A DNA stretch of 45,904 nt, taken from NCBI GenBank assembly GCA_020050685.1, contig JAGVKG010000039.1, forward strand, positions 1 through 45,904. The letters are read 5' to 3'. Under the pieces are notes generated by a model that made no database searches, had not been told where the DNA came from, and saw nothing but the letters and a program-made list of their open reading frames with translations. Below are positions 23,171-40,458 of the stretch, piece after piece. Source of the DNA: Candidatus Obscuribacterales bacterium. GTDB lineage: Bacteria; Cyanobacteriota; Vampirovibrionia; Obscuribacterales; Obscuribacteraceae. The position numbers and the translations under genes were made by a program. Positions within the stretch are counted from its first letter, which is position 1. Each line of letters starts with the position of its first letter.

Positions 23171-23983
23171 TTATGAGGTTAACGGTGTAATCTTACCGGC
23201 AGTGTCATACCAATTAGCTGCAAATATGCCGGACTCGGCAATGTCGTCGAAGACAGCAAACAAACATTGACTGGCCTTTGCCTTGGCGCCTGCCAAAAGT
23301 GGCTCCGTCCAGGCTCTCAGAGTGGCCATTCGTCCTGAGTTCAATGTCACCACCCAAATTGGAAAACCGCTTTGCAGAAATCGGCGTAATTTGGGTTCCC
23401 AATGTTTTCCTTGACGCAAATTGCCGGTGTCGACCTCTAAGAGTGCAATCATTTTCTCTTTACCCGGAAAAGTATAGGAAATGGTGGCATCTGCTACTTG
23501 ATTGTTGGCTGATTGACTATCAAGCGGTCTTGCCAAATATGCTCCACCGCTTTGCCATTCATATTCGGAGATCAGTTTTTTTCTTTGAGCCTCTTCCAGT
23601 GCTAAACGCATATCGACAAGTTTCAAAAGATGTTCAACGTGATAGGTATGCGGTGGGCCATAGGCGATTTCGTCAGAGGAAATATTGGCGTATCGTTCCA
23701 ATTCGCGAGTCGCCAACTGTGTCAAGTAAAAGACATATTCCGGTCGACCGCGGCCCTCTATGCGCTCGCTGGCTTGCGCTCCTAGAATTCCGCCTTGCTT
23801 GAGCTTGCGGATGCGCTTGCGGGACGTTTCATAAGTAACGTCAGGGAAACACAGCCGAGCCAATTGTGTTGAGGTCATAGCCCTGTGCAAATGAATTTGG
23901 CTGAGCGCCTCAATGTCCCTAGGCGTAAGCTGTAAGATTGGCCGCTTTGCTTTTGATTTCAAAGGTTTGCCCAACATGCGCAT
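23171..23983 (-). CDS. Replication-relaxation family protein (Replic_Relax-like)
   Basis: The product has about 270 residues; a frame to TTG 24052 would add 23. The N-terminal winged-helix region (LTPRDIEALSQIHLHRAMTSTQLARLCFP...SRKRIRKLKQGGILG) is followed by GRGRPEYVFYLTQLA and HHxxH-like YHVEHLLKLVDMRLALEEA. A nuclease-like core follows, with VADATISYTFPGKEKMIALLEVDTG and a LRRFLQSGFPIWVVTL strand. This pattern fits the replication-relaxation family common on conjugative plasmids, whose exact activity is unproven. ATG 23977 with GGGGA 6 bases upstream is also possible. It follows the toxin-antitoxin genes and the coupling-protein gene on the same strand, supporting a mobile-element origin. 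Confidence 0.65.
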   Translation of the reverse strand: MRMLGKPLKSKAKRPILQLTPRDIEALSQIHLHRAMTSTQLARLCFPDVTYETSRKRIRKLKQGGILGAQASERIEGRGRPEYVFYLTQLATRELERYANISSDEIAYGPPHTYHVEHLLKLVDMRLALEEAQRKKLISEYEWQSGGAYLARPLDSQSANNQVADATISYTFPGKEKMIALLEVDTGNLRQGKHWEPKLRRFLQSGFPIWVVTLNSGRMATLRAWTEPLLAGAKAKASQCLFAVFDDIAESGIFAANWYDTAGKITPLTS

Positions 23984-24020
23984 TCCCCAGTTGCCTACCC
24001 CATAAATAAAATTGTAAGTG

Positions 24021-24064
24021 GATCGATTCCGTTTTGGATCAATTGTGATCAATCGTGATCGATC
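24021..24064. promoter_or_regulatory. Cluster of five GATC sites, three at 10-bp phase
   Basis: GATC occurs at 24021, 24037, 24047, 24057 and 24061. The middle three lie in TGATCAA-like units with a 10-bp period. The cluster sits between the antitoxin stop and the likely start of the replication-relaxation gene, so it may be an operator with helical phasing or a methylation-sensitive switch. Confidence 0.45.
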
Positions 24065-25025: not shown

Positions 25026-27938
25026 TTATAGTTCTATTTTTTTGTTAGCGCCGATTTGTTGGGCGAAGTTGTCGTCCGGGTGACGGAAACGGTTGTGATC
25101 CAGATTCAAACTTGTCACTGGTGGACGTTGTGGTGGCACGCCGGCTTGTGATTGAATCACGTCGCTTAGTGTTTGACCACTGGCCATTGTCTGTCCAATT
25201 TGGTTATTGGTAGATTGGACACGAGCAGCTAACAACGATTGCGCGTCACTGGCGGAGACACCTGCATGTGAGGCTTGCGCAACTTCGGCAACTGGTGTGG
25301 CAGCTGGTGCGGCATCAGATGTGGCTGCGCCAATTTCCTTGCCGCATTCGATGCAGAAGCGTCCTTTGCCAGCTGCTTGCCAGCAATGTGGGCAAGTGCG
25401 CAAGTTTGCCGCTTGTGCAGGGGCTTGAACTTCAGATCTGACATTTGATACCGGAGGTTCATGAACTTGCGGATCATATGTAGTGGTTTGCGTATTGGCT
25501 TGGACAGCTGTGTCTTGAGCAAGAGCGTTTGGATTAACTTGCGCTGCGGTACCAACTTCTTGTGTCATGCCATTTCGTGATGGTGGCACGAGCATTTGTT
25601 GGGCTTGGGCAAAAGCCGGCGCTTGTTGCTGAGAGCTATCGCCCTGAGCCGCTTGTGCTTGCGCATGAGCATTTGCCTCAGCGCGGCTGGACATGTTGTG
25701 CATCAAGTGCATGCGAGCAATTTCTTCAATACCACGCAAGTCAACCATGAGCGGTTTGATTTCACCGTGCTCACTGTCACCGGCTGGTGCTAAGAACACA
25801 AGGGCGTGGTGCTTTTCCATCCGCTTGATAGAGTCTTGATCAATTCGTGGTACCACTTGTTGTGAGTGGATTCTTCTCCATGCAATCGGGAAAATATTCG
25901 AGCCGTCAAATTGGTCGGCAATACCCGGAACAATTACAGCATGTTTACCAATTTCATCCGAGAAGAACTTCGAGGTTGATTCGTCTGCGTTGTGCAAACA
26001 AATACGTATGGCTGAGTTGGAGAAGATTGTCTTCAATTCAGCCGCTCCACCGGATGTGGGGTCGGCACCAACTTTGCCAGCAATCTGGCTGATGTTTTGC
26101 AAGATAATTGCCAAACCGCCATTAGCACCACGGACGATAGCAGATAAACGACCAGCCATGTCGATGTTCAATGTTTGGTACTCGTCGAAGAAGGCAAACA
26201 ATGGCAGAACTGAGGCTGTACCATAACGTGTATGGAGGGCTTGTTCCATCTGGTAGACAAAGCAAGCTGCCAAAGATTCTGCGTCCGGACCCAATGAGGC
26301 TGGAGCGCCGAAAATAAGCACTGTCGGTTTGTGCATGGAGATCTTCAAGTTGACGTTTGATTCTTCTGTCACCTTGAGAATGAACTTGTTCTTGAACATG
26401 CGCAGACGTCCACGCACACCTTGAATGTTGTTGTTGAAGTCGCTATTGCTTTGAATCAGCTGACTCAAAGTACCGTTAACTTTGCTGAATTCTTTTGGTT
26501 CAACTTCCGGATTGGTCTTTGCCCGGCGCAACGATTCAACAATATTGTCACGGCTATAAACAAGCTCCATCAAGCCACGTGGATTGCATGGCAGTTCATT
26601 GAACTCGCAAGCTGCACCGGCTTCATCACGATTGATGACTTCGACGGCTCCCCATTTGAGCAGGCGGGCCATGGCTTCGATATAACCAAAGTCGCGTTCT
26701 GCCCAGTGCTGTTGTTCCGCTTCCAGCGAGTTAACATCCTGCACAATAGAAGATGCAAACTGAGTCGGATCGGCTTCGAGCGGATTCCAGTGAATGGACG
26801 CTTCTTCATCCAAGGGGTTGAAATAGAGTGTTTCAAAACCAGCTTGTTTCGCTTCCGGCAACACTGTGTACTTGAAGCCTTCTTTCTTTTGGTCCAGGTT
26901 CGGATCGTTAGCCTTAGCTTCCAAAGCAATGATTACGCATGGCTTGGCTAACATGGCCTTGATCACAGCCCGCATCAATGTTGTTTTACCGGAACCGGAT
27001 GGTGCTACCAGGAACATATTTTTGTTTGGCAATCTGCCAAGCGGAATGGTGACCGGCAATTGTGTGCGAGCCATAAATCCAAAAGGTAGCACAATACCAT
27101 CTTGTTCAGTCCAAGTCGCACTGGGGTTTACTTTGCCCCAGCGACCATGCCGTCTTAGGTTGGGTGGACACAAAAATGATTTTTGATATTCATTAGGACT
27201 CATCAAACCGGAAGGCGGATTGAAGGTTTTAATTGTTTGCCAGGGGAAGAGACGCTTCTTGTGAGCAGCAGCAATAATAATTGCCAATAAAACTAATGAT
27301 GGCAACAAGATGGCAACTGAGGTTGAATCCAAAAATGCATGTGACTTAGTTCTCATGCCACCAGATTCTGGAGTGGAATTGGCTGCATAGAAACGCATTG
27401 ATTTTGCCTGCGCTGGTGTTGCTTGTGCTGGAGCCGTTTGACCTTGGGTCAACATCTTGGCGCCTGGCATGATTAATGGATTCCCGCCGCTTTGTTCTTG
27501 CGGTGCGGTAGGCAATGTACTAGTTGGTATACCCGCTTGTGTAACGGTTTCTACTCCAGGTTGTCCAACCGGAGCCCCGGCTTGACCTTGGGAATCACCA
27601 CCTTGAACCAGAGGTTGTCCGGCAATCATTGGTTGAGCGGATTGTTGTTGAGCCGGTGCCATCTGCCCTGGCGCTAAGTAAACACCAGTATCAGAAATGC
27701 GTGCCTTGCCAGCAATTGCTGCGCCACCACCGTCGGTGCCACTATTAGGATTGGCAATGCCGGAAACTGTACCTTGCGGTGCAGCCGTCATCTGAGGATA
27801 ACTAGGCGTAACAATGTATTGACCTTGTTGCATTTGCACGCGGCGCTCATACTCCTTGGCAGAAACGATTTCGCCAGTTTCGGAGTTCTTGTAGCGTGCA
27901 ATCACGCCGCGATCGTTAATTTGTGCTCTCCAAGCCAT
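25026..27938 (-). CDS. VirD4/TraG-type coupling ATPase with long N-terminal extension and C-terminal zinc ribbon
   Basis: The 970-residue product begins with about 200 Gln/Ala/Pro/Gly-rich soluble residues, then a single transmembrane segment (about 205-225). The motor domain has Walker A APSGSGKT (312-319), the Walker B-like LFAFFDEYQTL (about 580-590), LAIILQNISQIAG (about 609-621) and RICLHNADESTSKFFS, as in type IV coupling proteins, which bring substrate DNA or protein to the channel. After another low-complexity stretch a zinc ribbon is formed by CPHC (849-852) and CIEC (862-865). Classical VirD4 has its membrane segments at the very N-terminus, so this layout is unusual. The start overlaps the previous stop (TAATG), with GGAGG upstream. 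Confidence 0.85.
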   Translation of the reverse strand: MAWRAQINDRGVIARYKNSETGEIVSAKEYERRVQMQQGQYIVTPSYPQMTAAPQGTVSGIANPNSGTDGGGAAIAGKARISDTGVYLAPGQMAPAQQQSAQPMIAGQPLVQGGDSQGQAGAPVGQPGVETVTQAGIPTSTLPTAPQEQSGGNPLIMPGAKMLTQGQTAPAQATPAQAKSMRFYAANSTPESGGMRTKSHAFLDSTSVAILLPSLVLLAIIIAAAHKKRLFPWQTIKTFNPPSGLMSPNEYQKSFLCPPNLRRHGRWGKVNPSATWTEQDGIVLPFGFMARTQLPVTIPLGRLPNKNMFLVAPSGSGKTTLMRAVIKAMLAKPCVIIALEAKANDPNLDQKKEGFKYTVLPEAKQAGFETLYFNPLDEEASIHWNPLEADPTQFASSIVQDVNSLEAEQQHWAERDFGYIEAMARLLKWGAVEVINRDEAGAACEFNELPCNPRGLMELVYSRDNIVESLRRAKTNPEVEPKEFSKVNGTLSQLIQSNSDFNNNIQGVRGRLRMFKNKFILKVTEESNVNLKISMHKPTVLIFGAPASLGPDAESLAACFVYQMEQALHTRYGTASVLPLFAFFDEYQTLNIDMAGRLSAIVRGANGGLAIILQNISQIAGKVGADPTSGGAAELKTIFSNSAIRICLHNADESTSKFFSDEIGKHAVIVPGIADQFDGSNIFPIAWRRIHSQQVVPRIDQDSIKRMEKHHALVFLAPAGDSEHGEIKPLMVDLRGIEEIARMHLMHNMSSRAEANAHAQAQAAQGDSSQQQAPAFAQAQQMLVPPSRNGMTQEVGTAAQVNPNALAQDTAVQANTQTTTYDPQVHEPPVSNVRSEVQAPAQAANLRTCPHCWQAAGKGRFCIECGKEIGAATSDAAPAATPVAEVAQASHAGVSASDAQSLLAARVQSTNNQIGQTMASGQTLSDVIQSQAGVPPQRPPVTSLNLDHNRFRHPDDNFAQQIGANKKIEL

Positions 27939-28597
27939 TAGCTCTTTTGACCTCCCTCGGAAATGCCAACAATGCGCATGCCATCTTTGCTCAACCGTAC
28001 CAAATATTCAAGATGGACATTACGAACAGATGAACCTTTTTCTGGAACTGCAAGCGTTTGTATACCAGTAACGAAAACTACAACTGCACCATCAGCTTGC
28101 GGGTGCCCAGCTAAAATTTGAATCGGCTTGAATGAACTTTTTACGCCAGATTCGTCAATTTGTTTTTCAATCTCAGATGTCCAGACATTTTGGCGATAAG
28201 CTGCCGCTACTTCTGGTGACATATAAGCGATAGCCTTTTCTTGGTTACCGCGCGCAGAGCCTGCGCTCAAGTCCCAAGCAATCGGTAGCCATTGTTCAAT
28301 GAAGGCTTTGGCGGAGTTCGGGTCGGTAGTAGCTCCTGCTGCTTGGGCCGAGCCGGCAGTGGTATCACTGGCATAACCTTCGTTTGGATATCGCGAGTCT
28401 GATTGTCTGGCACCGGAAATTCTTTGACCGCCACCGGTTACATCCGGATCGCTCATCCATTTTTGACGTGGACGACTATGCGTTGGTTCTGGTGTGGGCA
28501 TGAGCAAGAGGGTGAAGAATATTCCTGCCATCAGTCCTGCTAATCCAACCATGATTAGCGTCATACGATATTTTTGGCCGGCTTGATAGTCAAACAT
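27938..28597 (-). CDS. Membrane-anchored VirB8-like protein (tentative)
   Basis: The 219-residue product has one transmembrane segment (about 12-32, LIMVGLAGLMAGIFFTLLLM), a Pro/Gly-rich linker and a C-terminal domain from about 95. That domain has AKAFIEQWLPIAWDLSAGSARGNQEKAIAYMSPEVAAAYRQNVW and then strands (FKPIQILAGHPQADGAVVVFVTGIQTLAV, VHLEYLVRLSKDGMRIVGISE). One helix-rich half plus a beta sheet is the NTF2-like plan of VirB8/TrbF/TraE, and the position between virB4 and the coupling gene supports this. AAGGTGG precedes ATG 28597. Sequence similarity alone is not decisive. Confidence 0.55.
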   Translation of the reverse strand: MFDYQAGQKYRMTLIMVGLAGLMAGIFFTLLLMPTPEPTHSRPRQKWMSDPDVTGGGQRISGARQSDSRYPNEGYASDTTAGSAQAAGATTDPNSAKAFIEQWLPIAWDLSAGSARGNQEKAIAYMSPEVAAAYRQNVWTSEIEKQIDESGVKSSFKPIQILAGHPQADGAVVVFVTGIQTLAVPEKGSSVRNVHLEYLVRLSKDGMRIVGISEGGQKS

Positions 28598-28600
28598 TTT

Positions 28601-31426
28601 TTAGCCCACCTTTAATAACTGGGGACTGAAGGTTTGCGGCGTTATACCTTGAGCAAGTAAGTGACATGCCCAGCGTGAATCACCATTACAAAGCTCGGTC
28701 ATGCGCGCGCGCATCGGCTGATCGGAGTTTGGTTCTGTAGTTGCTACCCAGTACATGAAACGGGGGACAACCAACTTAACCACACCGCGCGACATCTTGT
28801 GATAAATCAAGAATGCTTCCGAGTATTCTCTGTTTTTACGAGTTAAATGTCCGATGGAGGACATCTCAGCCGGTGTCAGTCCGCAAGCATCTTTGATAAG
28901 CTCAAAGTTTGCCGGGTCATTACCCAAGATAATTTTGATTGAGCTATTGCTGGCTAGTGTGCGCGCTCTGTCGTCACGCAAAAGGTCACCGAGCTCTTGC
29001 GATATGCCAATGAACAATAGACCTAAGTGTCGGCTGGTGCGTGATGCATCTTCAACCAAAGTCTTTCCGCCTTCGTAGCGCAAAAGTCTCCACAATTCGT
29101 CTATACAGAAGACAAATCGTGCTGGTTTGCCTTTCTTCATTTGCTCAAGCTTGTGAGCTGCCGCCCGTCTCAAGACAAAGTCGGAAACAAACAAAGTAAC
29201 TACTGCTTCCAAAGTCTTATCGTGAGAAAGTTCGGATGTGTCGAAAACCATGATTTGCGAATCCATCGGAATGGATGTCGGTCCATCGAAGAGTTTGCCA
29301 AAGATAGCACCCTTGCAATAAAGTCCCAAACGGCTTGCTAGATCATCGGAAACATCACCGCGACGCGAACCTTTGCATTTTGCTGCTTCTTCTTTCAACC
29401 AGAAAACCAAATCAGATTCTGTCGGTATGCGGTTCTCAGCTGCGCAACTCTTATAGATATGTTGAATGCCTTGCATGAGCAAAGGTTTTTCATCTTTAGT
29501 CATAGCTTGCTCACCACTTTCGCCCAGCATGACGGAGTGGAAGTTCAACAATTTGATGATGTGTGACTCCGGTGGATTAGCCGGATCAATTGCCTTGCCA
29601 TCGGCACCCATTGGTGGCAAATCGTATAAGTTGATTGTTACCGATCCATCCGGACCAAGCCGAATGTAAGCCGCATTGTCATAGACTTCGGTAATCAACT
29701 TATAACTGCCGGAACGGTCGATGATCACTGCCTTGGCGCCAGCCAAAGTTTTCATTTGAATGATTTGCTGGGCCACCATGGATTTACCTTCACCAGGTTG
29801 ACCGAAGACAATGCAAAGGGCATTCGGTAATTTTTCATCATAAGCATTGAGGAATACCGGTTCCAAAGTTTCTTTGGAGAAACCAAGCCAATCACCTTGC
29901 TCGGATCCTAATTTGGCATGAACAAAGGGGAATGAATTGCGCAAGGTTGGTGTGCGAACTGCCTTGCCGCGACGCGTAACGTCTACACCAAGACCGATCA
30001 GGCTGCCGACGAAGAGTTGCTTTTGTTCATGATGACCGACGACAAAGCGTGCTCCACGACATTGGGCAGCAGCTGATCGCACAAGTTCAGTATTGCGATT
30101 GAGCTCGTCTAAGGTTTCGGAATTGATCGTGAAGTAAATGGCATTGTTGAACACTTCCATATTGGTGGTGTACAGTTCAGATCCGATGCTGGCTGCTTCT
30201 TGAGCTTTCTCAGCTTCTTCTTGGTTTGGTGCAGAGCGTGGACCCATCAGACCCTGATAAGTGTTGGCTGTTGCTTGAGCTTGTTTGCGTTGCAAGCGCT
30301 TTCTAAAGATTTCTTTGTCCAGCTTGTGAGCAAAAATGTTTAAGCGCCATTCGCAGTTGAGGCGAAGCAATGGTTGCAACCAAAGCGGTGCCGTCCGCTC
30401 AGGTAAGCGGTTCATATAAAGTGTACGGCTGTATCTTCCAACTGCTTCTTCACCTTCAGCACCTTGGTGCGATAGATCGGAAATGAAGGCATAGTCCGGA
30501 TGACTAAAGTCATAACAAGATTCTGTTAACTGCTGACGCAAGGTTGGCGGATCCATGTCTGGGAAAATCCGTCGTATCGATTCCGGCACCGTCTCTTGTT
30601 TCGGGCGCATTGGTATCGGTAGATCGTCTGTCTTTTGTTGATCGTGCTCAGGATTTAGCTCGCGATAGAGCATGCGGAAATATTCCAGAGCAGAAATTGG
30701 TCTGGCTGTAATTGAACAATGGTTGAGCTGGGCAATATGTCCGTGCGAACGTTGAATCAAGGTCGTGACATTTTTTGCATGCTGTCCAGTCGATTGTCTT
30801 GATCCTTGGCTGTTGAATGTATCAAGAATTTGATTGACGGTCGACTCGAGTATGCCTTGTTTCGGCAAGCGCTCTTTGGGCGGACGATAACAGAAGGTAA
30901 CAAAGAACTTGAGTTCCGGAATAAAGTTTTTGGACAACAAGAATGCTTCGTCGTTTTCCACACCGCGGGCGACGTATTTCAAAAACTCATCATCAACCAC
31001 TTCAACCGGATGGCGAGAGAAATATTCGCGCTTGCCGATGTTGTGGCAAACAACAGTTAATTGTACTGAGGTGTCTACTGCATTGAGGAAGCCGGTAAAG
31101 TGATTCATCAAGGAAACCAGGCGTACTTCATCAAATCCAGAAACGTGAACACCATCAAGTTCAAAGCAGCAGCGATAGCTGCCATCTTTCAAAACAATTG
31201 TGCCGATGCCTGTAGCATCGTCTTGGAACATATCCCAAAGAGGCAGAAGTCCGGCAGCCGATGAATGCGGTCTTGGCACAGCACCGACAGGAAGTTTAGC
31301 TAAAGCGCTTGTGGAAACTGAGTCGTTTTCCGAATTGCCTTTGGCCCAAGGCAAGATACCTAAGAGGCTATTGCCTTGCAGTCTGTTTTCTTTCGATTGT
31401 GATCTGAGAATTGATCTGGCGTCCAT
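28601..31426 (-). CDS. virB4: VirB4-family type IV secretion ATPase
   Basis: This 941-residue protein is the energising ATPase of conjugation-type secretion. Walker A GQPGEGKS is at 542-549, preceded by PNALCIVF and followed by IIDRSGSY. Walker B is in ARFVFCIDELWRLL (about 769-782), and RTSRHLGLLFIGISQELGDLL carries the expected Arg/Gln positions. The N-terminal half (about 60-500) is the less conserved VirB4 interaction domain, including NAIYFTINSETLDEL. It is the strongest evidence that this locus encodes a type IV machine. It is flanked by VirB3-like and VirB8-like genes with gaps of 3-6 bp, indicating an operon. Confidence 0.9.
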   Translation of the reverse strand: MDARSILRSQSKENRLQGNSLLGILPWAKGNSENDSVSTSALAKLPVGAVPRPHSSAAGLLPLWDMFQDDATGIGTIVLKDGSYRCCFELDGVHVSGFDEVRLVSLMNHFTGFLNAVDTSVQLTVVCHNIGKREYFSRHPVEVVDDEFLKYVARGVENDEAFLLSKNFIPELKFFVTFCYRPPKERLPKQGILESTVNQILDTFNSQGSRQSTGQHAKNVTTLIQRSHGHIAQLNHCSITARPISALEYFRMLYRELNPEHDQQKTDDLPIPMRPKQETVPESIRRIFPDMDPPTLRQQLTESCYDFSHPDYAFISDLSHQGAEGEEAVGRYSRTLYMNRLPERTAPLWLQPLLRLNCEWRLNIFAHKLDKEIFRKRLQRKQAQATANTYQGLMGPRSAPNQEEAEKAQEAASIGSELYTTNMEVFNNAIYFTINSETLDELNRNTELVRSAAAQCRGARFVVGHHEQKQLFVGSLIGLGVDVTRRGKAVRTPTLRNSFPFVHAKLGSEQGDWLGFSKETLEPVFLNAYDEKLPNALCIVFGQPGEGKSMVAQQIIQMKTLAGAKAVIIDRSGSYKLITEVYDNAAYIRLGPDGSVTINLYDLPPMGADGKAIDPANPPESHIIKLLNFHSVMLGESGEQAMTKDEKPLLMQGIQHIYKSCAAENRIPTESDLVFWLKEEAAKCKGSRRGDVSDDLASRLGLYCKGAIFGKLFDGPTSIPMDSQIMVFDTSELSHDKTLEAVVTLFVSDFVLRRAAAHKLEQMKKGKPARFVFCIDELWRLLRYEGGKTLVEDASRTSRHLGLLFIGISQELGDLLRDDRARTLASNSSIKIILGNDPANFELIKDACGLTPAEMSSIGHLTRKNREYSEAFLIYHKMSRGVVKLVVPRFMYWVATTEPNSDQPMRARMTELCNGDSRWACHLLAQGITPQTFSPQLLKVG

Positions 31427-31432
31427 AATCTG

Positions 31433-31771
31433 CTACTCGGTGAAGGGAACTAGGGTTTCGTCTGTCAAAAAGCGGGTTGGTGTTGGGTCTGGTCCGGGAA
31501 TGTAAATGTGCGTGGAGAAAAAGAAATTGAGGGCGTTTTCCAAGGCTCCAGTTGAATTGTTGAGAGTGAATAAGCAATACACTGGTCCAATTAACATGAT
31601 CAGGATTGTCAGATCCAAACGCAGGTCTTGTCCGCAAACATGTACTGGGCTCATCCAGGAATAAAGCTGTGTACCAACCAAAAGGCTTAAGAGAAGGGCG
31701 ATGAGCTGGTCATAGCGCAAGCCAAACAACTTTGGTTGGTCTTCGAGATTTAGAGGTGTAATGTCTTCCAT
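31433..31771 (-). CDS. VirB3/PrgI-like inner-membrane protein
   Basis: The 112-residue product has two close transmembrane segments (about 24-42 and 54-72: LIALLLSLLVGTQLYSW and LTILIMLIGPVYCLF) and polar ends. The position directly upstream of virB4 and the size match VirB3/PrgI proteins, which associate with VirB4 at the inner membrane. TAGGGGA precedes ATG 31771 at 6 bases. The segment NFFFSTHIYIPGP resembles the short region after the helices in this family. Context carries much of the assignment. Confidence 0.65.
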   Translation of the reverse strand: MEDITPLNLEDQPKLFGLRYDQLIALLLSLLVGTQLYSWMSPVHVCGQDLRLDLTILIMLIGPVYCLFTLNNSTGALENALNFFFSTHIYIPGPDPTPTRFLTDETLVPFTE

Positions 31772-31780
31772 AGTAGTCCC

Positions 31781-32482
31781 CTAAGAAACCTTGAGCATTG
31801 AATCTTCTTCATCGCTCATGAAAAGTGATTCCACCAAATGTGGTGGTAAAGCTTGAGGCTCCGCATTGCGAGCAAAGGCTTTCGCGCGCTGCAAGTCAAC
31901 TAACTCTTGCGGTAAGCGAGAAACGCTTGTTACTTGATCAAAGTGGCTAATTGCCTTCTGAAAGAATTTGAGCTGACGATAAATTTCGCCCAGCAAATAG
32001 TGATAGTAGGCAACTAAGCTTACATACTGTTCGTCCGCCAGAGCTGCTAAAAGTTCTGTAACCGCAAGCTCCAACCAACGCGTGTCTGCCTTGCCAGACT
32101 CACGGGTGCATCGATAGCCTTCTAATGCCAGCAACGCCAGATCATATCTGTGGGCGTCCATTTGCCGTCCGCATAGAATTGCATGAGCAAATAATTTTGA
32201 GTATTCAGTATCGGGCGACTGCGGTACGAGCTTGGGATTATAAGGATGTATGTTGAAAAAGGTGGACCACCAGGTGAATTGGCAGCCGGGACACATTGCC
32301 ACCATTGCTGCTCTGAATTTGGCATCGGGAAAGAGGCGGCCTAAGTCAGTTTCAATCCGAGTTTCCGTTGTGATTTTCGGCAGATTGGACAAAAACGACG
32401 TAGAAAAAATGCAATTGCATTTGGGACAAACTACGCTTGTCTCTTTTAGGCTAAATTCGTTAGTCGGCTCTTTTGTGTGCAT
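31781..32482 (-). CDS. DUF2225-like zinc-binding protein in the secretion operon
   Basis: The 233-residue product has CPKC (19-22) with a further Cys, then CPGCQFTWW (64-67), the Cys pairs and spacing of DUF2225-family proteins. The C-terminal half is helical with TPR-like character (YYHYLLGEIYRQLKFFQKAISHFDQVTSV). Function is unknown. ATG 32482 is preferred; a longer frame opens with TTG 32515. It is the first gene of the block that continues into VirB3, VirB4, VirB8 and VirD4-like genes, which is an unusual place for this family. No signal peptide is present, so it should be cytoplasmic. Confidence 0.6.
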   Translation of the reverse strand: MHTKEPTNEFSLKETSVVCPKCNCIFSTSFLSNLPKITTETRIETDLGRLFPDAKFRAAMVAMCPGCQFTWWSTFFNIHPYNPKLVPQSPDTEYSKLFAHAILCGRQMDAHRYDLALLALEGYRCTRESGKADTRWLELAVTELLAALADEQYVSLVAYYHYLLGEIYRQLKFFQKAISHFDQVTSVSRLPQELVDLQRAKAFARNAEPQALPPHLVESLFMSDEEDSMLKVS

Positions 32483-32545
32483 TGGTCTTCGCCAGTTAGA
32501 ATCTGTTATGCACAAGCTTAGGACTTACTTATCTCCAGGTAAATC

Positions 32546-32578
32546 GGGGGAAATCCCATAAGAGTGGGAATTTGCCCA
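32546..32578. promoter_or_regulatory. GGGAA/TTCCC-type dyads upstream of the DUF2225-VirB3-VirB4 block
   Basis: GGGGGAAATCCC (32546-32557) is followed by AGTGGGAATTTGCCCA (32563-32578), 64-96 bp upstream of ATG 32482. The pair and its spacing closely repeat the elements at 37771-37805. Confidence 0.6.
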
Positions 32579-32647
32579 TCCAGAGAGGAATTGCCTGGGG
32601 AAAATACGAAATAGCTTGAAATTCAAGCCGGACAAATGGTCCTAATC

Positions 32648-35629
32648 CTAGGTCCAAAGGTGAGGCATGCTAGTTCTAAATTGATCAAGCGACTGAGCAT
32701 CATTGATGTTCACCCCGGCAGTGTTCATTGCGCTAACCACCTGACGAGCATTGACCTTGGTGATTTTTTCTTGGTGTCTAATCAATTTGCCAGGAGCGCC
32801 GCTTGGCAGATTGGGGGACTGTACTCCCCAGTGGTTCGAAACGGTCTGCAACCAAGCTTTGGATTGTTCAACTGTTTGATTCGGGTTCTGTTGCAGAAGC
32901 TCAGCATGCACCTCATAGACGACTCCTGCTGTGCCTTCCGGCGCGATATGGTGCATATCGAGAATTTGCTGCACAAATTCTGCATTTTTACTGTGAGCGA
33001 CAGAAGCAATCAGTGACACTCTTTGTGTGGCAGTTGCATTAGGATACAAACTGTCAACTTCTTTGGTGACTAGAGCTCCCATTTCTGGAATGACAATTTG
33101 TTGCTCGCCCTTGCCCAAAATTTTGACGTTATCATTACCATAAGAGTTCATGTTGGCGGCACTGTCCTTAATGCCCAATTTTTCCAAGTGACTCTTGATG
33201 GCAGCAAACTTAGTGCTTTCAGGCGAGTAGTCGTTTATCGGATCGCCATATAAACCATGTATGGCACCGGCCAGTTCTGGGGTATATGCGCCGCCTAATT
33301 CCCGTGCTAAGTACTGGTCATAACCATTACCTTTCTTGCCGGCCATGTAAGCCTGTGAATCTAATATGCCGGCTTTAAACATGTTCTTTGCTAGCTTTGC
33401 CTGGCCATAGGCGCTATCTTCAAAGCGTATGCCTTTTCTGGCTAATCGTGCCGCATAAAACTTTTCCTCGGCTGTTTCCGGTTTGTCAAATCCATAAGCT
33501 ATAGCAGATACGCGCTTCGCTTCATCTGCTTCTTCACCGGTAAAGCTGGCCATCCCGCTCACAATGTCGTTGCGCTCCGCATCCTCGTCGCTTGCATTTT
33601 CACTGCGGTGGTACGAAATACCGTCTTTGCTACCGCTGAATTCGTCCTTTCCGTTTTTGCTCCACTTTCTAATCCGCTTGTTGGCAAGCACAGCCTTTGC
33701 ATTGCCGGCAATGGCTCCTTTTTTATCGTTATCACTTGCAAGTTTGCCGGTGCCGGACCATGGGCTTTGCCATGGATTCGGATCTGGTATTTTTGGCAGT
33801 CCAGCTATATTGGCTTGACCTGGATTTATGCCCAGATTACCTTGTGCACCGGCTCCTGCTATGTTCACTCCAGCACCAAGCTGTCCTTGTCCATTGGCCA
33901 TTTGACCTTGTGCCATATTTAGTTGTTGTCCCTGCTGGTTCTGGGCAGCAGCGGCTTGCGCATTTTGTGCCTGTGCGTTTTGTGCTTGCGCATTTTGATT
34001 GTTTGCGTTCTGCACGTTGAGATTGGCACCACCAGCAGCTTGAGCGCCAGCGGCTGGTCCTCCTAGCCCGTTTAATTGTGGCGTTGACGTAGACATTGTA
34101 GAAAGCCCCGGTGGTCCGCTTCCAGGAAGGTGGGGTTCCAGCTTACTTGTTATTGCATTGCCCACAAACTCCATGCCTTCAGCAACTTTGCCGAGAAGAT
34201 CTCTCGGGTTGAGGAAAGGAGAAGTTGGTTCAATTACACCAGCCATTTGGAAAGCCGGTGCATAAAGCATTAGGGTAAGGGCCCCAATAGCAATCAAGAT
34301 TTTTCCCCAGGGCTCGTAATCGGAGTTCATTACAATGACCAGGATTCTCAGGCATCCAATCCAGAAAAATGACCAAAGGTTTACCGCCACAAATCCATAC
34401 ATGAATTTGGTTGTGTACATTTCTGTGTCCGGGGCGGCAAACATGACAATGAAAAGTGGCGCAAACATGTATTGCGCTAACAGAAGTATTGTTTGAATAC
34501 CTTTTAAAATAATTAGCGAAATTAGCTCAACGACGATTATGCCACCAAGGAAAGTGAAAATGAAACCGGCAACAAAAGATATTACGTCTCCGGCAAGCGG
34601 ACCGAACTTGCCCGCGATGGCTATCGGATATGCAGCATCCCCTAGGATCGGAGCTATTCCTTTTACTAATCCGGCAAGACCCGCAATAAACCCGAGTCGA
34701 ATGGAATCCGCAATGGCCGTATCGAGTTGGGCTGCCTCAGCGGCAGAATTGAACCAGATTGCTTTAATCATTTCATTGGAAATCTGGACTACGAATGTGT
34801 ATAAGGTCGGCCAAGCAATTAATATGCCCGTAGTTGTAATCAAACGCAAAACTGGCGACATGATATTGACCATGCCGCGCCATTGAGCTTCTGTCCAGTA
34901 TTTCCAAATACACAAAATGAACCAGAGCAAAAGTAAATCTGTGGCAATTGCATAAATTATGTCAGCTACTTGGCGAATACCTCTATCAATATCTGTATTG
35001 CCGATGGCAACATTATGGTTCAACATAAAGGTTCGGAGCACACCGCTTAGAAATTGTGCTGCTGGACAAATCCAACCGTTGACGAATTCGGTGATCCATT
35101 TGCTCATTAATTGGCCGATTGAACGGAAGAGTCGGGAAACGACATCATCCGAGTACCATTTGTGCAGGCCTTGGTAAACATCGTTTTGGACACCAAGCCC
35201 ATCACCAAGAGCATTTTCAATACCGGTGACGGAGTTGTCTAAGCGCTGTTCGCCGGCTTGCTGAGCCAAGGTAGTAAGATCAGCGCCGCGCAGATAGTTT
35301 TCTACGGCATTGCCTGCATTGCGAACGCCTTGGTCCGCTGCGCTTTTCCCCGCGGTATTATTCTCGGTTGTATTGGTTAATGGTGATTTCGGGCTTGTAT
35401 CTTCTGCAGCCTGCCTGGCACCAGGAGCTATTTCATAAGTGTTATCACTTGTGGCTGCATCAGCATCTTGTTGAGCGTAGCTTGCTTGTGGCAAAAAGAG
35501 TTGCACACCAACCATTAAGTGCATCAACAAAAAAAGCGCAGAACAAAAACGTATTGCCAACCTTGTACTTTTCTTGGTTGGCGACAGTTTTGTTCTGTCT
35601 CGTTTGTTGACTGCTGACACTTTTTTCAT
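32648..35629 (-). CDS. VirB6/TrbL-like polytopic protein with long C-terminal domain
   Basis: This 993-residue product has a signal/anchor (about 25-52, ending SYA-QQ), a periplasmic stretch, then six to seven hydrophobic segments between about 220 and 465 (for example IIYAIATDLLLLWFILCIWKYW, AGFIFTFLGGIIVVELISLIIL, ILIAIGALTLMLYAPAF). Residues about 535-600 are a low-complexity Asn/Gln/Ala linker, and about 640-993 is a charged soluble domain with no recognised fold. VirB6/TrbL proteins form the inner-membrane channel, and extended C-terminal domains occur in some. It is the only gene in its block. A cargo or regulatory role for the tail is speculation. Confidence 0.7.
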   Translation of the reverse strand: MKKVSAVNKRDRTKLSPTKKSTRLAIRFCSALFLLMHLMVGVQLFLPQASYAQQDADAATSDNTYEIAPGARQAAEDTSPKSPLTNTTENNTAGKSAADQGVRNAGNAVENYLRGADLTTLAQQAGEQRLDNSVTGIENALGDGLGVQNDVYQGLHKWYSDDVVSRLFRSIGQLMSKWITEFVNGWICPAAQFLSGVLRTFMLNHNVAIGNTDIDRGIRQVADIIYAIATDLLLLWFILCIWKYWTEAQWRGMVNIMSPVLRLITTTGILIAWPTLYTFVVQISNEMIKAIWFNSAAEAAQLDTAIADSIRLGFIAGLAGLVKGIAPILGDAAYPIAIAGKFGPLAGDVISFVAGFIFTFLGGIIVVELISLIILKGIQTILLLAQYMFAPLFIVMFAAPDTEMYTTKFMYGFVAVNLWSFFWIGCLRILVIVMNSDYEPWGKILIAIGALTLMLYAPAFQMAGVIEPTSPFLNPRDLLGKVAEGMEFVGNAITSKLEPHLPGSGPPGLSTMSTSTPQLNGLGGPAAGAQAAGGANLNVQNANNQNAQAQNAQAQNAQAAAAQNQQGQQLNMAQGQMANGQGQLGAGVNIAGAGAQGNLGINPGQANIAGLPKIPDPNPWQSPWSGTGKLASDNDKKGAIAGNAKAVLANKRIRKWSKNGKDEFSGSKDGISYHRSENASDEDAERNDIVSGMASFTGEEADEAKRVSAIAYGFDKPETAEEKFYAARLARKGIRFEDSAYGQAKLAKNMFKAGILDSQAYMAGKKGNGYDQYLARELGGAYTPELAGAIHGLYGDPINDYSPESTKFAAIKSHLEKLGIKDSAANMNSYGNDNVKILGKGEQQIVIPEMGALVTKEVDSLYPNATATQRVSLIASVAHSKNAEFVQQILDMHHIAPEGTAGVVYEVHAELLQQNPNQTVEQSKAWLQTVSNHWGVQSPNLPSGAPGKLIRHQEKITKVNARQVVSAMNTAGVNINDAQSLDQFRTSMPHLWT
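33954..34013. repeat. In-frame 15-bp tandem repeat
   Basis: Four units of about 15 bp encode NAQAQ-like pentapeptides in the linker of the VirB6-like protein. Length variation between strains would be expected. Confidence 0.75.
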
Positions 35630-35749: not shown

Positions 35750-36178
35750 TTAGAGACCGCCGCCCAAGCCACCGAAGTTGTTGATGGCGTAGGTTCCGAT
35801 CATGTGAACCGCAGTTGGTCCACCGAAGCCAATTCCTAATCCTTTGGCTACGTTCATGGCAGACTCACCACCGTCCCGGCTACCGAAAGCAACTTTCATT
35901 CCAGCTACTGAAGAAGGAATTGTGGAAAGAGCTGTGGCAATACGGGAAATGTCACGTGCGGAGTCATAGCCGAAGTCAGCCAATTGACCAACTTCATTTG
36001 ATTGTCCGTAACGTGGGTCTACCGGAGGTCCAACCAAACCTTGCGCATGGGCTACTTGATCATAGACACCGATGGCGATGAGTAAGAGTTGGGGAGCCAA
36101 AAGAAAGCCTACTTTCGTAGCAACCTTGAAGGTTGTTGAAGAAGCAATCTTCTTGCTGAGGGTACTGATCTTTAACAT
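35750..36178 (-). CDS. Small exported protein, candidate VirB2-like pilin subunit
   Basis: ATG 36178 has AGGAGG at ideal spacing, giving 142 residues; the longer frame to 36241 is unlikely. A long signal sequence with hydrophobic core VGFLLAPQLLLIAIGVYD ends at VAHA-QG. The mature protein of about 96 residues is Gly-rich, with a second moderately hydrophobic region (about 108-135, VAKGLGIGFGGPTAVHMIGTYAINNF). The size, long leader, strong ribosome binding site and position before VirB6 fit a VirB2/TrbC-type pilin, but two strong transmembrane helices, as usual in VirB2, are not obvious. An exported adaptor is the alternative. Confidence 0.5.
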   Translation of the reverse strand: MLKISTLSKKIASSTTFKVATKVGFLLAPQLLLIAIGVYDQVAHAQGLVGPPVDPRYGQSNEVGQLADFGYDSARDISRIATALSTIPSSVAGMKVAFGSRDGGESAMNVAKGLGIGFGGPTAVHMIGTYAINNFGGLGGGL

Positions 36179-36258
36179 TTTAAGCCTCCTAAAAGGGAAT
36201 GTTTTTGAGTTGAGTGAACGAGTGAGTGAGCTATGGGACAAAAAACCTATTCAAAAAA

Positions 36259-36947: not shown

Positions 36948-37685
36948 TTAGAAGAATCGGCGTCTTCCGAGTGAGCCTAGACCCATGCCCATTATTCCGC
37001 GGTTGTAATTGGTGTAGCCACCGTAGCCACGACCGTAGCCACCATAATAGCCACCACCACCGTAGCCGCCATAGTAGCGACCGCCGCCACCATTCATTGA
37101 TCTACTGATTGCATAACCGGCACCCATGGCGATAGCTGCCATTCCTAATCCACCAGCCAATGTGCTGATGCGGCTAATTGCCGAAGGCTTGCCAGTGTTG
37201 CGCATCGTTTTAGAAGATGCGGTATTTCTTTTCACACCAGCCGAAAGAGTTTGTGATTGTGTATTGGTTGGATTTGTGTGGTTGACGCAGTCTTCACAAA
37301 TTTCACCTGTGCTGGACATATTTGGATTTAATTGTCCAACCTTTTGCTCACCAGTTAAACTTGGTGGCAAATCACCTTTATTCATCAGTTGATCAAAAGC
37401 GTCATTACGCATTTGTTGTGCCGATGGTTGCATTGGCATTTGACCCATGCCCAGTTGAGCTTGCCTTGCTTGTACTTGGCTCTGTTGCATTTGCTGAGCC
37501 GCTTGTGCGTTGAGCGGTATCACTTCTGGCGGTAGAAGCAAATCTTCTCCAGCGTTTGGTGAAAAACCTTGAGCTAATACTTGAGACTCAAATGCAAATC
37601 CGCAAATTAGACCAAGCGACAAAGCGACTTGAGCAAGCTTGAACTTGCTTTGCATTTTATTTTTGCTGTCGTTGTGTGTCTTCAT
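36948..37685 (-). CDS. Exported protein with Gly/Tyr-rich C-terminus
   Basis: The 245-residue product has a signal peptide (LAQVALSLGLICGFAFESQVLA-QG), a Gln/Met-rich region (about 60-95, AAQQMQQSQVQARQAQLGMGQMPMQP), one CEDC pair (about 135-138), then a short hydrophobic glycine-zipper-like stretch (AGGLGMAAIAMGAGYAI). It ends in a GGYGGGGYYGGYGRGYGG-type tail. Such tails occur in adhesive or self-assembling surface proteins. The glycine zipper plus Gly/Tyr tail also occurs in the TPR protein at 18251. ATG 37685 has only a weak ribosome binding site; ATG 37655 is possible. It begins a block preceded by the shared dyad. Confidence 0.6.
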   Translation of the reverse strand: MKTHNDSKNKMQSKFKLAQVALSLGLICGFAFESQVLAQGFSPNAGEDLLLPPEVIPLNAQAAQQMQQSQVQARQAQLGMGQMPMQPSAQQMRNDAFDQLMNKGDLPPSLTGEQKVGQLNPNMSSTGEICEDCVNHTNPTNTQSQTLSAGVKRNTASSKTMRNTGKPSAISRISTLAGGLGMAAIAMGAGYAISRSMNGGGGRYYGGYGGGGYYGGYGRGYGGYTNYNRGIMGMGLGSLGRRRFF

Positions 37686-37770
37686 GGTCTTTTCTTTGGT
37701 TTGCCGACCGGCTTGCGGTCGTATGGGTTAAGTAGTGGGATTTTAAGTGATTGCCTCTGTTCAAGATATC

Positions 37771-37805
37771 GGGGGAATTCCCATTTCAGTGGGAAGATTC
37801 CCCCC
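37771..37805. promoter_or_regulatory. Paired GGGAA/TTCCC-type dyads upstream of the Gly/Tyr-rich protein block
   Basis: GGGGGAATTCCC (37771-37782) and AGTGGGAAGATTCCCC (37788-37803, extending in C to 37805) lie 86-120 bp upstream of ATG 37685. The order and 5-6-bp gap match the pair at 32546-32578. Confidence 0.65.
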
Positions 37806-37824
37806 GCTGGTCTTAGACCGGCTT

Positions 37825-38775
37825 TTAGAAGTTGGTCTCAATGGCAGATGGCACCATGAGTTGGTCCATTTTTTGTGGGTTAGTGTTGGCTGGATTAAAC
37901 TGCATATAAGGTAAGCCAAAGTCGGTTGTGTTCGAGCTATAAAGCGGGATGCGCCTCCAGCCTTGACCAAATTCAAACGATTGTTGGGCATTAATACCTT
38001 CAACTGGGCAGTCTCTTGTGGAGGACAAGCCGTAATCTTGCAGCGAGGTGCCGGTGGGAATTTTTACTCCGCCAACCGAGTAGCGCATACCGCCACCCAA
38101 GTCGATTGAGTTGTTTCTCAAACCGTCACCGGTTGGTACACCATATGGTACGCCCCAGCCGGCCCATGGTCCAAGTCTGGTTACTTCGTCTTGGCTATCG
38201 CCACCGCCGCCCATGACTGAATTGCGGCCGCGATATCCCCATTGGTGAGTTTCCTGACCACCACGACGAACGGTTGGAATAGTTGTGTAATAACCACCAG
38301 TTCCAGGCAGTCCGCCACCAGGCATGACATTAACCAATTGAGCCGGATTGAATGAACCCATTGGTGCGGTCAATTGACCTGGATCTGGTCCAGGTGTGGA
38401 AGGCGGTGGTGGAATAAATGGTGAAAGTGCTGGACCCAAAACACCGGGAGGTGATACCACTCCTGGTGACACAGGCAATGGAATACCGGAGCTGTACTGG
38501 TCGATTGTATTTGAAGGAATGGATGTTACCCATGGTTTAAGTTCAGGCGATCCGCCCATACCAGGAGTGACTGGCACTGGTGTCGGTCCATCACCAATCG
38601 GTGGTGGCTGACCTTCTGGTGCCGGCACGAATGGTGCGTTTGCCGGTGCACAAGGTACTAACGGATTGCGCAAGGTGGCGGACATTTGCGCTGAGCACGA
38701 TTGGCTCGTCGCCAATTGGCACATGCCAATTATGCTTGCCGCAATTGCGATTCTGGTGATGGTTAACTTAAGCAT
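37825..38775 (-). CDS. Proline-rich exported protein, paralogue A
   Basis: The 316-residue product has a signal peptide (ITRIAIAASIIGMCQLATSQSCSA-QM) and a Pro/Gly-rich body (GQPPPIGDGPTPVPVTPGMGGSP, SPFIPPPPSTPGPDPGQL). Later segments AQLVNVMPGGGLPG and TSLQDYGLSSTRDCPVEG have counterparts in the upstream gene, showing a tandem duplication. GGAGG precedes ATG 38775. Mature cysteines are few (near LVPCAP and RDCPVEG). No named family is recognised. Strong co-orientation with the secretion genes suggests a surface or periplasmic role. The gene ends about 20 bp from the shared dyad of the next block. Confidence 0.6.
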   Translation of the reverse strand: MLKLTITRIAIAASIIGMCQLATSQSCSAQMSATLRNPLVPCAPANAPFVPAPEGQPPPIGDGPTPVPVTPGMGGSPELKPWVTSIPSNTIDQYSSGIPLPVSPGVVSPPGVLGPALSPFIPPPPSTPGPDPGQLTAPMGSFNPAQLVNVMPGGGLPGTGGYYTTIPTVRRGGQETHQWGYRGRNSVMGGGGDSQDEVTRLGPWAGWGVPYGVPTGDGLRNNSIDLGGGMRYSVGGVKIPTGTSLQDYGLSSTRDCPVEGINAQQSFEFGQGWRRIPLYSSNTTDFGLPYMQFNPANTNPQKMDQLMVPSAIETNF

Positions 38776-38795
38776 TTTAAAAAGCCTCCGGAGCT

Positions 38796-39551
38796 TTAGT
38801 AATTGGCTTGAGTCATGCGTGCACGAAGCACGGGACCCTTGAAGAGTTGTCTGTTACCGTGAAGGTCTTGGGTGTTTTGGGCGCTATTTAGGTTTGGATC
38901 ACGGTTTTGGCTGGCACCAATTGGTGCCGGGAAAATAAAAGGTCTGGGGCCGTCATCGGACTTTGTGCGTACCACACCGCGGCTAACCATGGATGGCATT
39001 CTGTCGATGTCGAGGCCAAAATCTGTCAATCTGGAACCGTACATTTTCGGGTATCCAAGATCTCTTGTGGTTTGAGCGCTCCAGCGTTCGCGTGGTGCGA
39101 AATCTCCGGGCATGCCACCATCCGGGTTGATGTTTACCAAAGCAGCCGGTGGAATCCAACCAGATGTCGTACCTGGTATCGAACCATAATCAACCGGATC
39201 ATTTTGGGCTGATGGCTGCCAGTAAGGTGCAAACTCTGCATTGACTAGATCTTTTTCGAGGGGGCTAGTAGGCGATATATAGACATGCGATGGTGGTGGC
39301 ATCGGACCACCCCAATCACCACCAGGTGTTGGGATCCAAAGATCGCCACTGCCAATTGGGGGAGGCTGTCCGGGATCTGCTGCCGTATCAGGCGGCATTA
39401 CCGAAGCCGTTGGTATATATGGATTACGTAGCGTTTCATATGACTGGGCAAACGATGGGCAAACCGTGGTCAAAGATGCCACCACAAAAAGGGCCGTCGA
39501 CAGAATTAGTGTCTTTGGCTTTAGTTGCAGATTGTGAATTGAATTAAGCAT
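38796..39551 (-). CDS. Proline-rich exported protein, paralogue B
   Basis: The 251-residue product starts at ATG 39551; the open frame back to 39695 has no signal or ribosome binding site. The signal peptide is LILSTALFVVASLTTVCPSFA-QS. Alignable landmarks with paralogue A in the same order are TLRNPYIP (versus TLRNPLVP), GQPPPIGSG (versus GQPPPIGDG), AALVNINPDGGMPG (versus AQLVNVMPGGGLPG) and LTDFGLDI (versus LQDYGLSS). It is the first gene of the whole minus-strand locus, with paralogue A 20 bp downstream. Function is unknown. Confidence 0.6.
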   Translation of the reverse strand: MLNSIHNLQLKPKTLILSTALFVVASLTTVCPSFAQSYETLRNPYIPTASVMPPDTAADPGQPPPIGSGDLWIPTPGGDWGGPMPPPSHVYISPTSPLEKDLVNAEFAPYWQPSAQNDPVDYGSIPGTTSGWIPPAALVNINPDGGMPGDFAPRERWSAQTTRDLGYPKMYGSRLTDFGLDIDRMPSMVSRGVVRTKSDDGPRPFIFPAPIGASQNRDPNLNSAQNTQDLHGNRQLFKGPVLRARMTQANY

Positions 39552-39680
39552 TTTTGATCCGGTTGGATTTTTTCTGTTGTGCCTTATCTTTGGCGCCCTG
39601 CCCAATTTGGTACTGGTACGGGCATCCCAAACGATAACTTTTAGATAAGCCCGCGTCTCTGGGGGTCTTACGTAATGGCA

Positions 39681-39696
39681 TGGGAATTTTCCCACT
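39681..39696. promoter_or_regulatory. GGGAA/TTCCC-type dyad between the secretion locus and the coiled-coil gene
   Basis: TGGGAATTTTCCCACT reads AGTGGGAAAATTCCCA on the minus strand, 130-145 bp upstream of ATG 39551 and about 142 bp from GTG 39838. The 286-bp gap also holds the palindrome TTAGGCCTAA (39726-39735) and the inverted repeat AGATCAG/CTGATCT (39736-39742 and 39753-39759), which may serve the plus-strand gene. Confidence 0.6.
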
Positions 39697-39837
39697 GAGC
39701 TTAATGTGAAAATTAAATAGAAGGCTTAGGCCTAAAGATCAGTTATAAAGATCTGATCTGAAAATTAGATTTGAAAAAGTATTTGTACAAAAGATCAATT
39801 ATCGGTATCATTGTTTTGCTAGAAAGGCGGACCGCGC

Positions 39838-40458
39838 GTGACCAGTCAAAATTTAGAAGCAAAAGCTTTAAATAGAAATTCCAATCAGACATTGACCCAC
39901 GAAGAGGCAGTCACTGTAGATGGTTTAGAAGATATCTTTAAATGGGCCCAAGACGTGGTGTCAGATGGCCAACATGCCGAAGATAATCGGGCCAAAAAAG
40001 TACGTGAACAAAGAATCCGCCGCCGCGTTCTTGAACTTGTTCAATCAGCCAAAGAACAAAAGCAAAAAGATCAAGCCAAAGATGAGATCACTTATCTGCA
40101 AAGAAGAGTGATTGCACTTTTGCAAAAGCTTTCCGAATCGATTGAAGAAAATTCTTCGCTCAAGCAAACTGTGGTTGCTCAGCAACTTACTTTGGTGAAA
40201 CTGCCGGAGTTGGAAGCTGAAGTCAAGCGACTACAAGATATTGAACTTGATCGCGAAGCATTCGATGAGTCTCGTCGTGAACTAACGAACACACTTTCTA
40301 AATTGAAAAAAGACAGAGACTATTTAGAAGAACTTGTAATTGTAAACGAGCGTGAAAATTCTCGACTAACTCACCTCTTCCGTGAAACGAAAGACGAGTT
40401 GGATAAATTAAAAGGACGTCGCTGGTGGCATTGGCTAATTAGCCCATGGTCACCTTAG
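39838..40458 (+). CDS. Coiled-coil protein of unknown function
   Basis: The 206-residue product starts at GTG 39838 with AAAGG upstream. From about 55 to 190 it is a nearly continuous charged coiled coil (RRRVLELVQSAKEQKQKDQAKDE, LAPEL-like LPELEAEVKRLQDIE, FRETKDELDKLKGRR). It ends in an aromatic tail, RRWWHWLISPW, which could dip into a membrane. No signal peptide is present. It is divergent from the secretion locus, sharing an upstream region that holds the locus dyad, so a linked role is possible but unproven. Confidence 0.65.
   Translation: MTSQNLEAKALNRNSNQTLTHEEAVTVDGLEDIFKWAQDVVSDGQHAEDNRAKKVREQRIRRRVLELVQSAKEQKQKDQAKDEITYLQRRVIALLQKLSESIEENSSLKQTVVAQQLTLVKLPELEAEVKRLQDIELDREAFDESRRELTNTLSKLKKDRDYLEELVIVNERENSRLTHLFRETKDELDKLKGRRWWHWLISPWSP

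Follow-up and report, generated by a model that had tools for sequence, protein, structure and literature searches.

What do two exported, proline-rich proteins do at the head of a secretion locus that is kept across a bacterial order? The two genes lie on the minus strand of the window (the whole stretch of DNA analysed, 45,904 nucleotides), separated by 20 bases. Protein A (37825..38775, 316 aa) is Pro/Gly-rich and ends in TNF, and protein B (38796..39551, 251 aa) is proline-rich and ends in MTQANY, where the family mostly has TIAPY. The start of B is most likely the ATG at 39551 rather than the GTG at 39695 given in the ORF list. An earlier note had described a tandem pair of paralogous exported proteins, and this description held. 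Both open reading frames begin with a Sec-type signal peptide, as read from the sequence, with no strongly hydrophobic segment past it in either protein, and the mature parts contain 16% proline and 15% glycine in A and 15% and 10% in B. The similarity of A and B exceeds chance and makes them tandem paralogues: BLASTP aligned them at E 2e-11, the Smith-Waterman score of the mature parts was 150 (1000 shuffles reached at most 86, and 1000 block shuffles at most 98), and profile-profile comparison gave 99.9% and E 6.6e-34 over the N-terminal ~180 positions. The four motifs that the note had listed as shared were found exactly and in order in both window proteins, at residues 34, 55, 145 and 245 of A and 40, 61, 136 and 175 of B, and a relaxed version of the ordered set occurs in 33/47 A rows and 22/44 B rows of the family alignments. 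Outside the motifs the products differ, as had been noted, and the C-terminal halves were not aligned by hhalign.

The C-terminal half of A carries S/T-x-[DE]-[FYL]-G repeats, at positions 223, 244, 265 and 283 in the window (~20-residue spacing). The motif [STQ]x(1-2)[DE][FYLWH]G, with overlapping matches counted in real proteins and shuffles alike, occurs 5.0 times per A protein (0.15 in shuffles) and 2.5 times per B protein (0.10 in shuffles). Start codons, motifs and repeats were all scored by simple script rules. The terminal TNF is present in 46 of the 47 A rows, the remaining row being cut by a contig end, and a terminal APY in 33 of the 44 B rows. In G006 (L071/L029; L029 16079-17727), A and B share a 250-nt tract that is 81% identical, with the middle clearly higher, which is likely the result of gene conversion; in other loci such a tract reaches at most about 213 nt at 67%. 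L035 was set apart in this comparison, its assumed A start being too long and overlapping B.

The pair stands at the head of a minus-strand VirB4/VirD4 cluster, where the earlier note had placed it. After B and A follow the genes for an exported Gly/Tyr-rich protein of 245 aa (GY, 36948..37685), an exported 209-aa protein (P209, 36259..36888), a pilin-like protein (35750..36241), a large VirB6/TrbL-like protein (32648..35629), a DUF2225/TPR protein (31781..32482), a VirB3-like small protein of 112 aa (31433..31771), a VirB4-type ATPase (28601..31426), a VirB8-like protein with a single N-terminal hydrophobic segment (27938..28597) and a VirD4-type coupling ATPase (25026..27938). Past VirD4, on the same strand, are a Gp49/RelE-like toxin-type gene that adjoins this end of the locus (24412-24792, PF05973 7e-17) and a Replication-relaxation family HTH gene (23171..24052, PF13814 1.7e-14). 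A divergent coiled-coil gene lies behind A/B on the plus strand (39838..40458) and is a conserved neighbor in 38/48 loci. Pfam supports the names of VirB4 (PF19044 8e-17, above cut-off), VirD4 (PF02534 4.8e-15 and PF12696, both above cut-off) and the HTH protein; the other VirB names come from position, size and topology. VirB4 also matched TIGR02746 at E 2e-45, under the equivalog cut-off, and the DUF2225/TPR protein matched PF09986 at 4e-5, with its start placed at the ATG at 32482 (TTG 32515 in the ORF list). Searches of Pfam, NCBIfam and PHROGs gave no convincing family match for VirB2, VirB3, VirB6 or VirB8, so named here from position and topology: the pilin-like protein is VirB2-like by its position and hydrophobic segments, without a family match, the VirB3-like and VirB8-like proteins are named by position, and the VirB6-like protein, without a Pfam or NCBIfam match, by position and size. 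In the same three databases no scanned protein matched a VirB7/VirB9/VirB10 outer-membrane core, of which remote homologues are possible. A Pfam scan of 16 window proteins, of which 13 belong to the locus or lie at its end, recognised no relaxase; only the PF13814 HTH protein turned up.

The VirB6-like ORF ranges from 765 to 1,871 aa across genomes (window, L023, L024, L026, L029, L030, L032). The pilin-like gene is multiplied in some genomes, with 3 tandem copies in G013 (L032) and, in G439 (L104), an additional copy immediately following A. Nearly every Obscuribacterales genome also has a second, distant VirB4 locus (31-33% identity; L021 at G000:C1:30001-50000, L097, L098, L099), which likewise has VirB3-like and DUF2225/TPR genes; the L021 stretch gave no match to VirD4.

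To what extent do A and B belong to this locus? Their genes were found in 50/53 Obscuribacterales genomes, both in 49 and only B, next to a contig end, in G010. The A profile matched 51/53 at E <= 1e-3; the count is 50 because the match in G019 is to a third paralogue only. The class-level search with A, in which at most five candidates were scored per genome, matched 50/382 genomes at E <= 1e-5, all of them Obscuribacterales, and neither protein was found in the 329 class genomes outside the order. A draw of 386 genomes from the phylum gave no A match except in the window's own genome. Among the relatives carrying the locus is Candidatus Obscuribacter phosphatis EBPR_351 (L053), and a few order genomes are labelled Chloroflexi, Proteobacteria or Actinobacteria, probably as mislabelled bins. 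A plasmid-borne pair was rejected, since a search of 72,556 plasmid records with A returned nothing at E <= 0.01.

The VirB4 of this locus (62% identity or more) is present in 48/53 genomes. The co-occurrence with virB4 that the earlier note had looked to is broad but incomplete: 47/53 genomes have both, A/B occur without this VirB4 in G028, G442 and G443 (MAGs, 64-75% complete), VirB4 occurs without A/B in G445 (a MAG, 77% complete), and G026 and G019 have neither. The MAGs behind these counts are incomplete. With the set narrowed to the 22 genomes of 90% completeness or more and contamination no higher than 5%, both are found in 21, and G026 is the one without either. G026 (91% complete) lacks A/B, the VirB4 of this locus and the element R1 described below, and retains the second VirB4 and the third paralogue. 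Co-occurrence alone is weak evidence because both A/B and VirB4 are near-universal in the order. Conserved synteny and locus-specific promoter elements, both seen in sequence comparisons, are better evidence for the association.

The order B-A-GY-P209-pilin-VirB6-like-TPR-VirB3-like-VirB4-VirB8-like-VirD4 is kept in all seven genomes in which the locus was read. Insertions or contig breaks interrupt it in some of them, and in some GY or P209 was identified by position alone. A B-like gene precedes A in 46/48 contigs, 45 by the B profile plus L078, whose upstream copy scored higher with the A profile; the two others are L070, where the contig begins in A, and L077. The pilin-like gene follows A in 43/48 loci, and the other 5 have at most 1,810 bases downstream. 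In G027 the locus sits on a 3.2-Mb contig. A fixed location with fixed neighbors is what would be expected if inheritance is vertical and chromosomal.

The two proteins diverge at different rates. Across 48 loci, counting hits that cover over half of the query, the median identity to the window protein is 61% for A (48 loci), 36% for B (44 loci), 79% for the pilin-like protein (42 loci), 33% for P209 (39 loci) and 48% for the coiled-coil gene product (38 loci), with few loci covered for VirB4 (75%, 4 loci) and the VirB3-like protein (63%, 10 loci). A is thus less conserved than the pilin-like, VirB4 and VirB3-like proteins and more conserved than the coiled-coil, TPR, VirB6-like, B, P209 and GY proteins. 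The rapid divergence that the earlier note ascribed to both proteins fits B, and for A it was rejected on the 61% median.

These rates bear on whether A and B are cargo and not parts, that is, effectors or surface-decorating proteins that are secreted through the machine or alongside it. We consider this unlikely. Both proteins are exported, look disordered and sit at the head of the locus behind their own promoter region, and B diverges quickly, all of which would suit substrates. Their N-terminal Sec-type signals, however, mean that a T4SS is not needed for export, A ranks with the better conserved locus proteins and has a TNF end in every complete row, which is atypical of effectors, and both A and B are nearly order-wide. 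The disorder itself is suggested by AlphaFold2 models that are unfolded for A (47 sequences, mean pLDDT 41, pTM 0.17) and for B (44 sequences, mean pLDDT 52, pTM 0.21). We grade it as likely only, because a shallow alignment alone can yield an unfolded model. Neither protein matched any family in Pfam, NCBIfam or PHROGs, and profile searches of PDB sequences with A and B gave nothing better than E >= 0.29; membership of a known family was rejected on the missing matches and the unfolded models.

Upstream of B lies a conserved region, R2 (39647..39700, minus strand), with the family consensus AGTGGGARAAACCG-N8-TGCGTA-N4-CACC followed by a -35-like GACA, which reads GACG in the window copy, where a -10-like TATCGT follows 18 nt after GAC. 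A TAnnnT follows the GAC of the -35 in 41/41 sites, at 18 nt in 33 and 19 nt in 8. At E <= 7e-4, a threshold that just excludes the row after it, which is a partial match at a different place in G021 (7.8e-4), R2 gave 49 rows in 49 genomes, one per genome, and 48 of them lie just upstream of B; in G031 the A/B contig ends at this point, which puts its row on a different contig. The R1 and R2 searches that spanned more than 40 genomes were run with tighter filters. G440 has A/B with a weak R2 row (0.064). The R2 model used 36/41 sites, drawn from 42 upstream regions; the sequence pattern missed the L080 site, which is nevertheless aligned with the others. The right TGGGAA arm in R2 forms a clear palindrome in few loci (window, L066, L076).

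A second element, R1, has the consensus GGGGGGATnTTCCCATGnnnnTGGGAATTCCCCCGATTTC and occurs twice in the window, on the minus strand. The copy between the A and GY genes (37740..37813) consists of a palindrome (37760-37813) and a -10-like TAAAAT (37740-37745), and the copy before the DUF2225/TPR-VirB3-like-VirB4-VirB8-like-VirD4 module (32515..32588) of a palindrome (32535-32588) and TAAGCT (32515-32520). The core palindrome is found in 2 places in its own 4.2-Mb genome, and R1 is absent from the searched pieces of the second VirB4 locus and the genome's own locus for the third paralogue. At E <= 0.1, R1 was detected in 50/53 genomes and is missing in exactly the three without A/B. It follows A, or precedes GY if a pilin copy intervenes, in 45/53 genomes; it lies shortly upstream of the TPR-VirB4 module in 17/53, and both positions are occupied in 12. 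In L036, L040 and L104 a pilin copy stands after A and R1 is before the GY gene instead, and within 260 nt after A no R1 was found in 11/45 loci with a complete A. All 59 rows with E <= 1e-3, 3 of which are the opposite strand of an already counted site, are on contigs carrying genes of the VirB4/VirD4 locus. Hits outside the locus, without locus genes, were G017:C356 (E 0.0016), G438:C125 (0.027) and G015:C203 (0.062).

R1 could also be read as RNA. Its stem has 13 pairs with 90.6% of cells paired, including one pair that switches from A-U to G-C in 10/31 sequences, and the 45 regions downstream of A had a mean folding z of -2.5, with 27 below -2. A hairpin that sets stoichiometry as an attenuator or processing site, and is not a promoter, is nevertheless quite improbable in our judgement. 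Outside the stem, at a fixed distance and beyond the 54 model-building columns, lies TAnnAT, with T69, A70 and T74 invariant in 34/34 sites and A73 in 33/34; given this motif, we rejected R1 as mainly an RNA element. Covariation is weak because 7/13 pairs never vary, and no U-run follows the stem. The covariation model used 31/35 sites (four near-duplicates omitted) and the -10 column analysis 34/35. In the four VirB4-module copies that were read, TAnnnT stands at the -10 column in three and not clearly in L028. No Rfam family was found at R1 or R2: six loci were empty at E <= 1, and a scan of the window from 23 to 40.5 kb gave one sub-threshold match, away from both elements (MIR535, 26 bits vs 64).

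Judged by their conservation, R1 and R2 are probably promoters with operators. Both contain the half-site TGGGAA, a likeness noted by eye that suggests a single regulator. These promoter-like elements would give B-A its own transcription unit, so its membership of one operon with the machine genes cannot be assumed. New here, at the level of sequence, are the conserved promoter region of B and a promoter-like palindrome whose strong matches are confined to this locus.

The N-terminal segment of A and B is not confined to the pair. It recurs in a third paralogue, C, which has a signal peptide and a C-terminal two-span hydrophobic region (hairpin); kinship of this hairpin with the pilin-like protein was unsupported (hhalign probability 0.4%). 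In some genomes C carries long, variable arrays of ~11-residue GNGGxGxFESGA-like Gly-rich repeats. It lies at G000:C15:12480-13523 (L095) in the window's genome, and a C query at E <= 1e-5 matched 41/53 genomes, among them G026, which lacks A/B. Four C-like copies were seen in G019. An extra RNA polymerase beta (rpoB) gene is beside C in 10/12 full-length C loci read, and a TPR gene, a small exported protein and an HTH gene are usual around it. The extra RpoB is ~44% identical to canonical RpoB and was identified by Pfam in L081 (PF00562 4e-99) and by clustering elsewhere. A second RpoB gene was matched at 68% identity or more in 45/53 order genomes (L095, G000:C15, 8555-12436; also L081-L086, L088, L090, L092), with internal stop codons in the copies of G008 and G439. 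One MAG (L077) has a lone second A without B; the surrounding sequence, 7.3 kb on its upstream side and 0.7 kb on its downstream side, contains no gene recognised as belonging to the locus.

The earlier note would have taken a wide occurrence of its motifs apart from secretion genes as evidence against its reading. The N-terminal half of the set does recur in C, and L077 has its lone A, so the exclusivity of the motifs is weakened and not overturned. A, B and C might form a general cell-envelope or matrix family of the order, with a regulatory or historical link to the T4SS. C shares the N-terminal segment and usually sits near extra rpoB, TPR and HTH genes; it is retained in G026, which lacks the T4SS locus; A can stand alone, as in L077; and the HTH proteins found next to C and at the end of the T4SS locus are related (hhalign 96%, E 1.8e-9). 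Against these points, the A+B pair with R2 is found at the T4SS locus and is missing from G026 along with it, and we regard a family of this kind as an improbable account of the pair.

Position, joint absence and promoter architecture, as read from the genomes, tie A and B to one order-wide VirB4/VirD4 locus. The explanation that we favor, with a probability of roughly 0.5, is that A and B are Sec-exported structural, extracytoplasmic parts of a VirB4/VirD4-type machine and are co-regulated with it. The machine would perform VirB4/VirD4-type translocation and would be chromosomal and vertically inherited, with the pair acting as duplicated low-complexity proteins in the periplasm or at the surface; the earlier note had raised a place in the outer channel or a contact function as possibilities. 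Once the proteins have been exported by Sec and their signal peptides removed, docking onto machine partners would fall to the N-terminal TLRxPLI/GQPPPIGDG segment and to the S/T-x-[DE]-[FYL]-G repeats. These partners may be an outer-membrane port, the pilin-like protein, or GY and P209, and the tail at the C-terminus (TNF in A, TIAPY in B) may serve for assembly or anchoring. One regulator at the TGGGAA half-sites would switch on the B-A and GY-P209-pilin-VirB6-like modules and, in the window and some relatives, the TPR-VirB3-like-VirB4-VirB8-like-VirD4 module as well; the outer parts would thus be made with the machine, at levels that are not necessarily equal. Several observations count against this explanation. 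The AlphaFold2 models are unfolded and show no binding surface, the N-terminal motifs occur in C away from secretion genes and A occurs alone in L077, and the R1 copy of the VirB4 module was found in only 17/53 genomes.

A bolder version, which is rather doubtful, sees in A and B the founders of a new class of outer T4SS component: disordered, repeat-bearing, Sec-exported scaffolds that replace the VirB7/9/10 core or sheathe the pilus, under a locus-specific TGGGAA regulator. If that were true, the secretion system would be a permanent organ shared by an entire order of bacteria. The locus itself represents a conjugation-type machine that has held its position in almost all examined genomes of a non-photosynthetic order in the cyanobacterial phylum, and the two exported families together with the locus-specific promoter elements offer handles on its purpose, be it predation, DNA exchange or contact.

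Among the titles and abstract openings that searches of an open-licence paper collection listed, none concerned this A/B secretion locus. Like the conjugative plasmids of cyanobacteria (MPF_C), as described in excerpts of PMC8600333, the locus has VirB4 and VirD4 ATPases. The MPF_C systems of that excerpted account are plasmid-borne and include a relaxase, whereas no relaxase was recognised among the scanned proteins of the locus described here and A was unmatched in the plasmid records. Another known counterpart is the VirB/VirD4-type T4SS of Vampirovibrio chlorellavorus, proposed to be a predation device in the excerpted text of PMC4451040, where the one mention of Obscuribacter concerns respiration. 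Both are VirB4-type machines in a non-photosynthetic lineage of the cyanobacterial phylum. The V. chlorellavorus system is, according to the same excerpts, T-type (trb genes) with 2/3 operons on plasmids, whereas the system analysed here is an order-wide locus with the lineage-specific exported proteins A and B.
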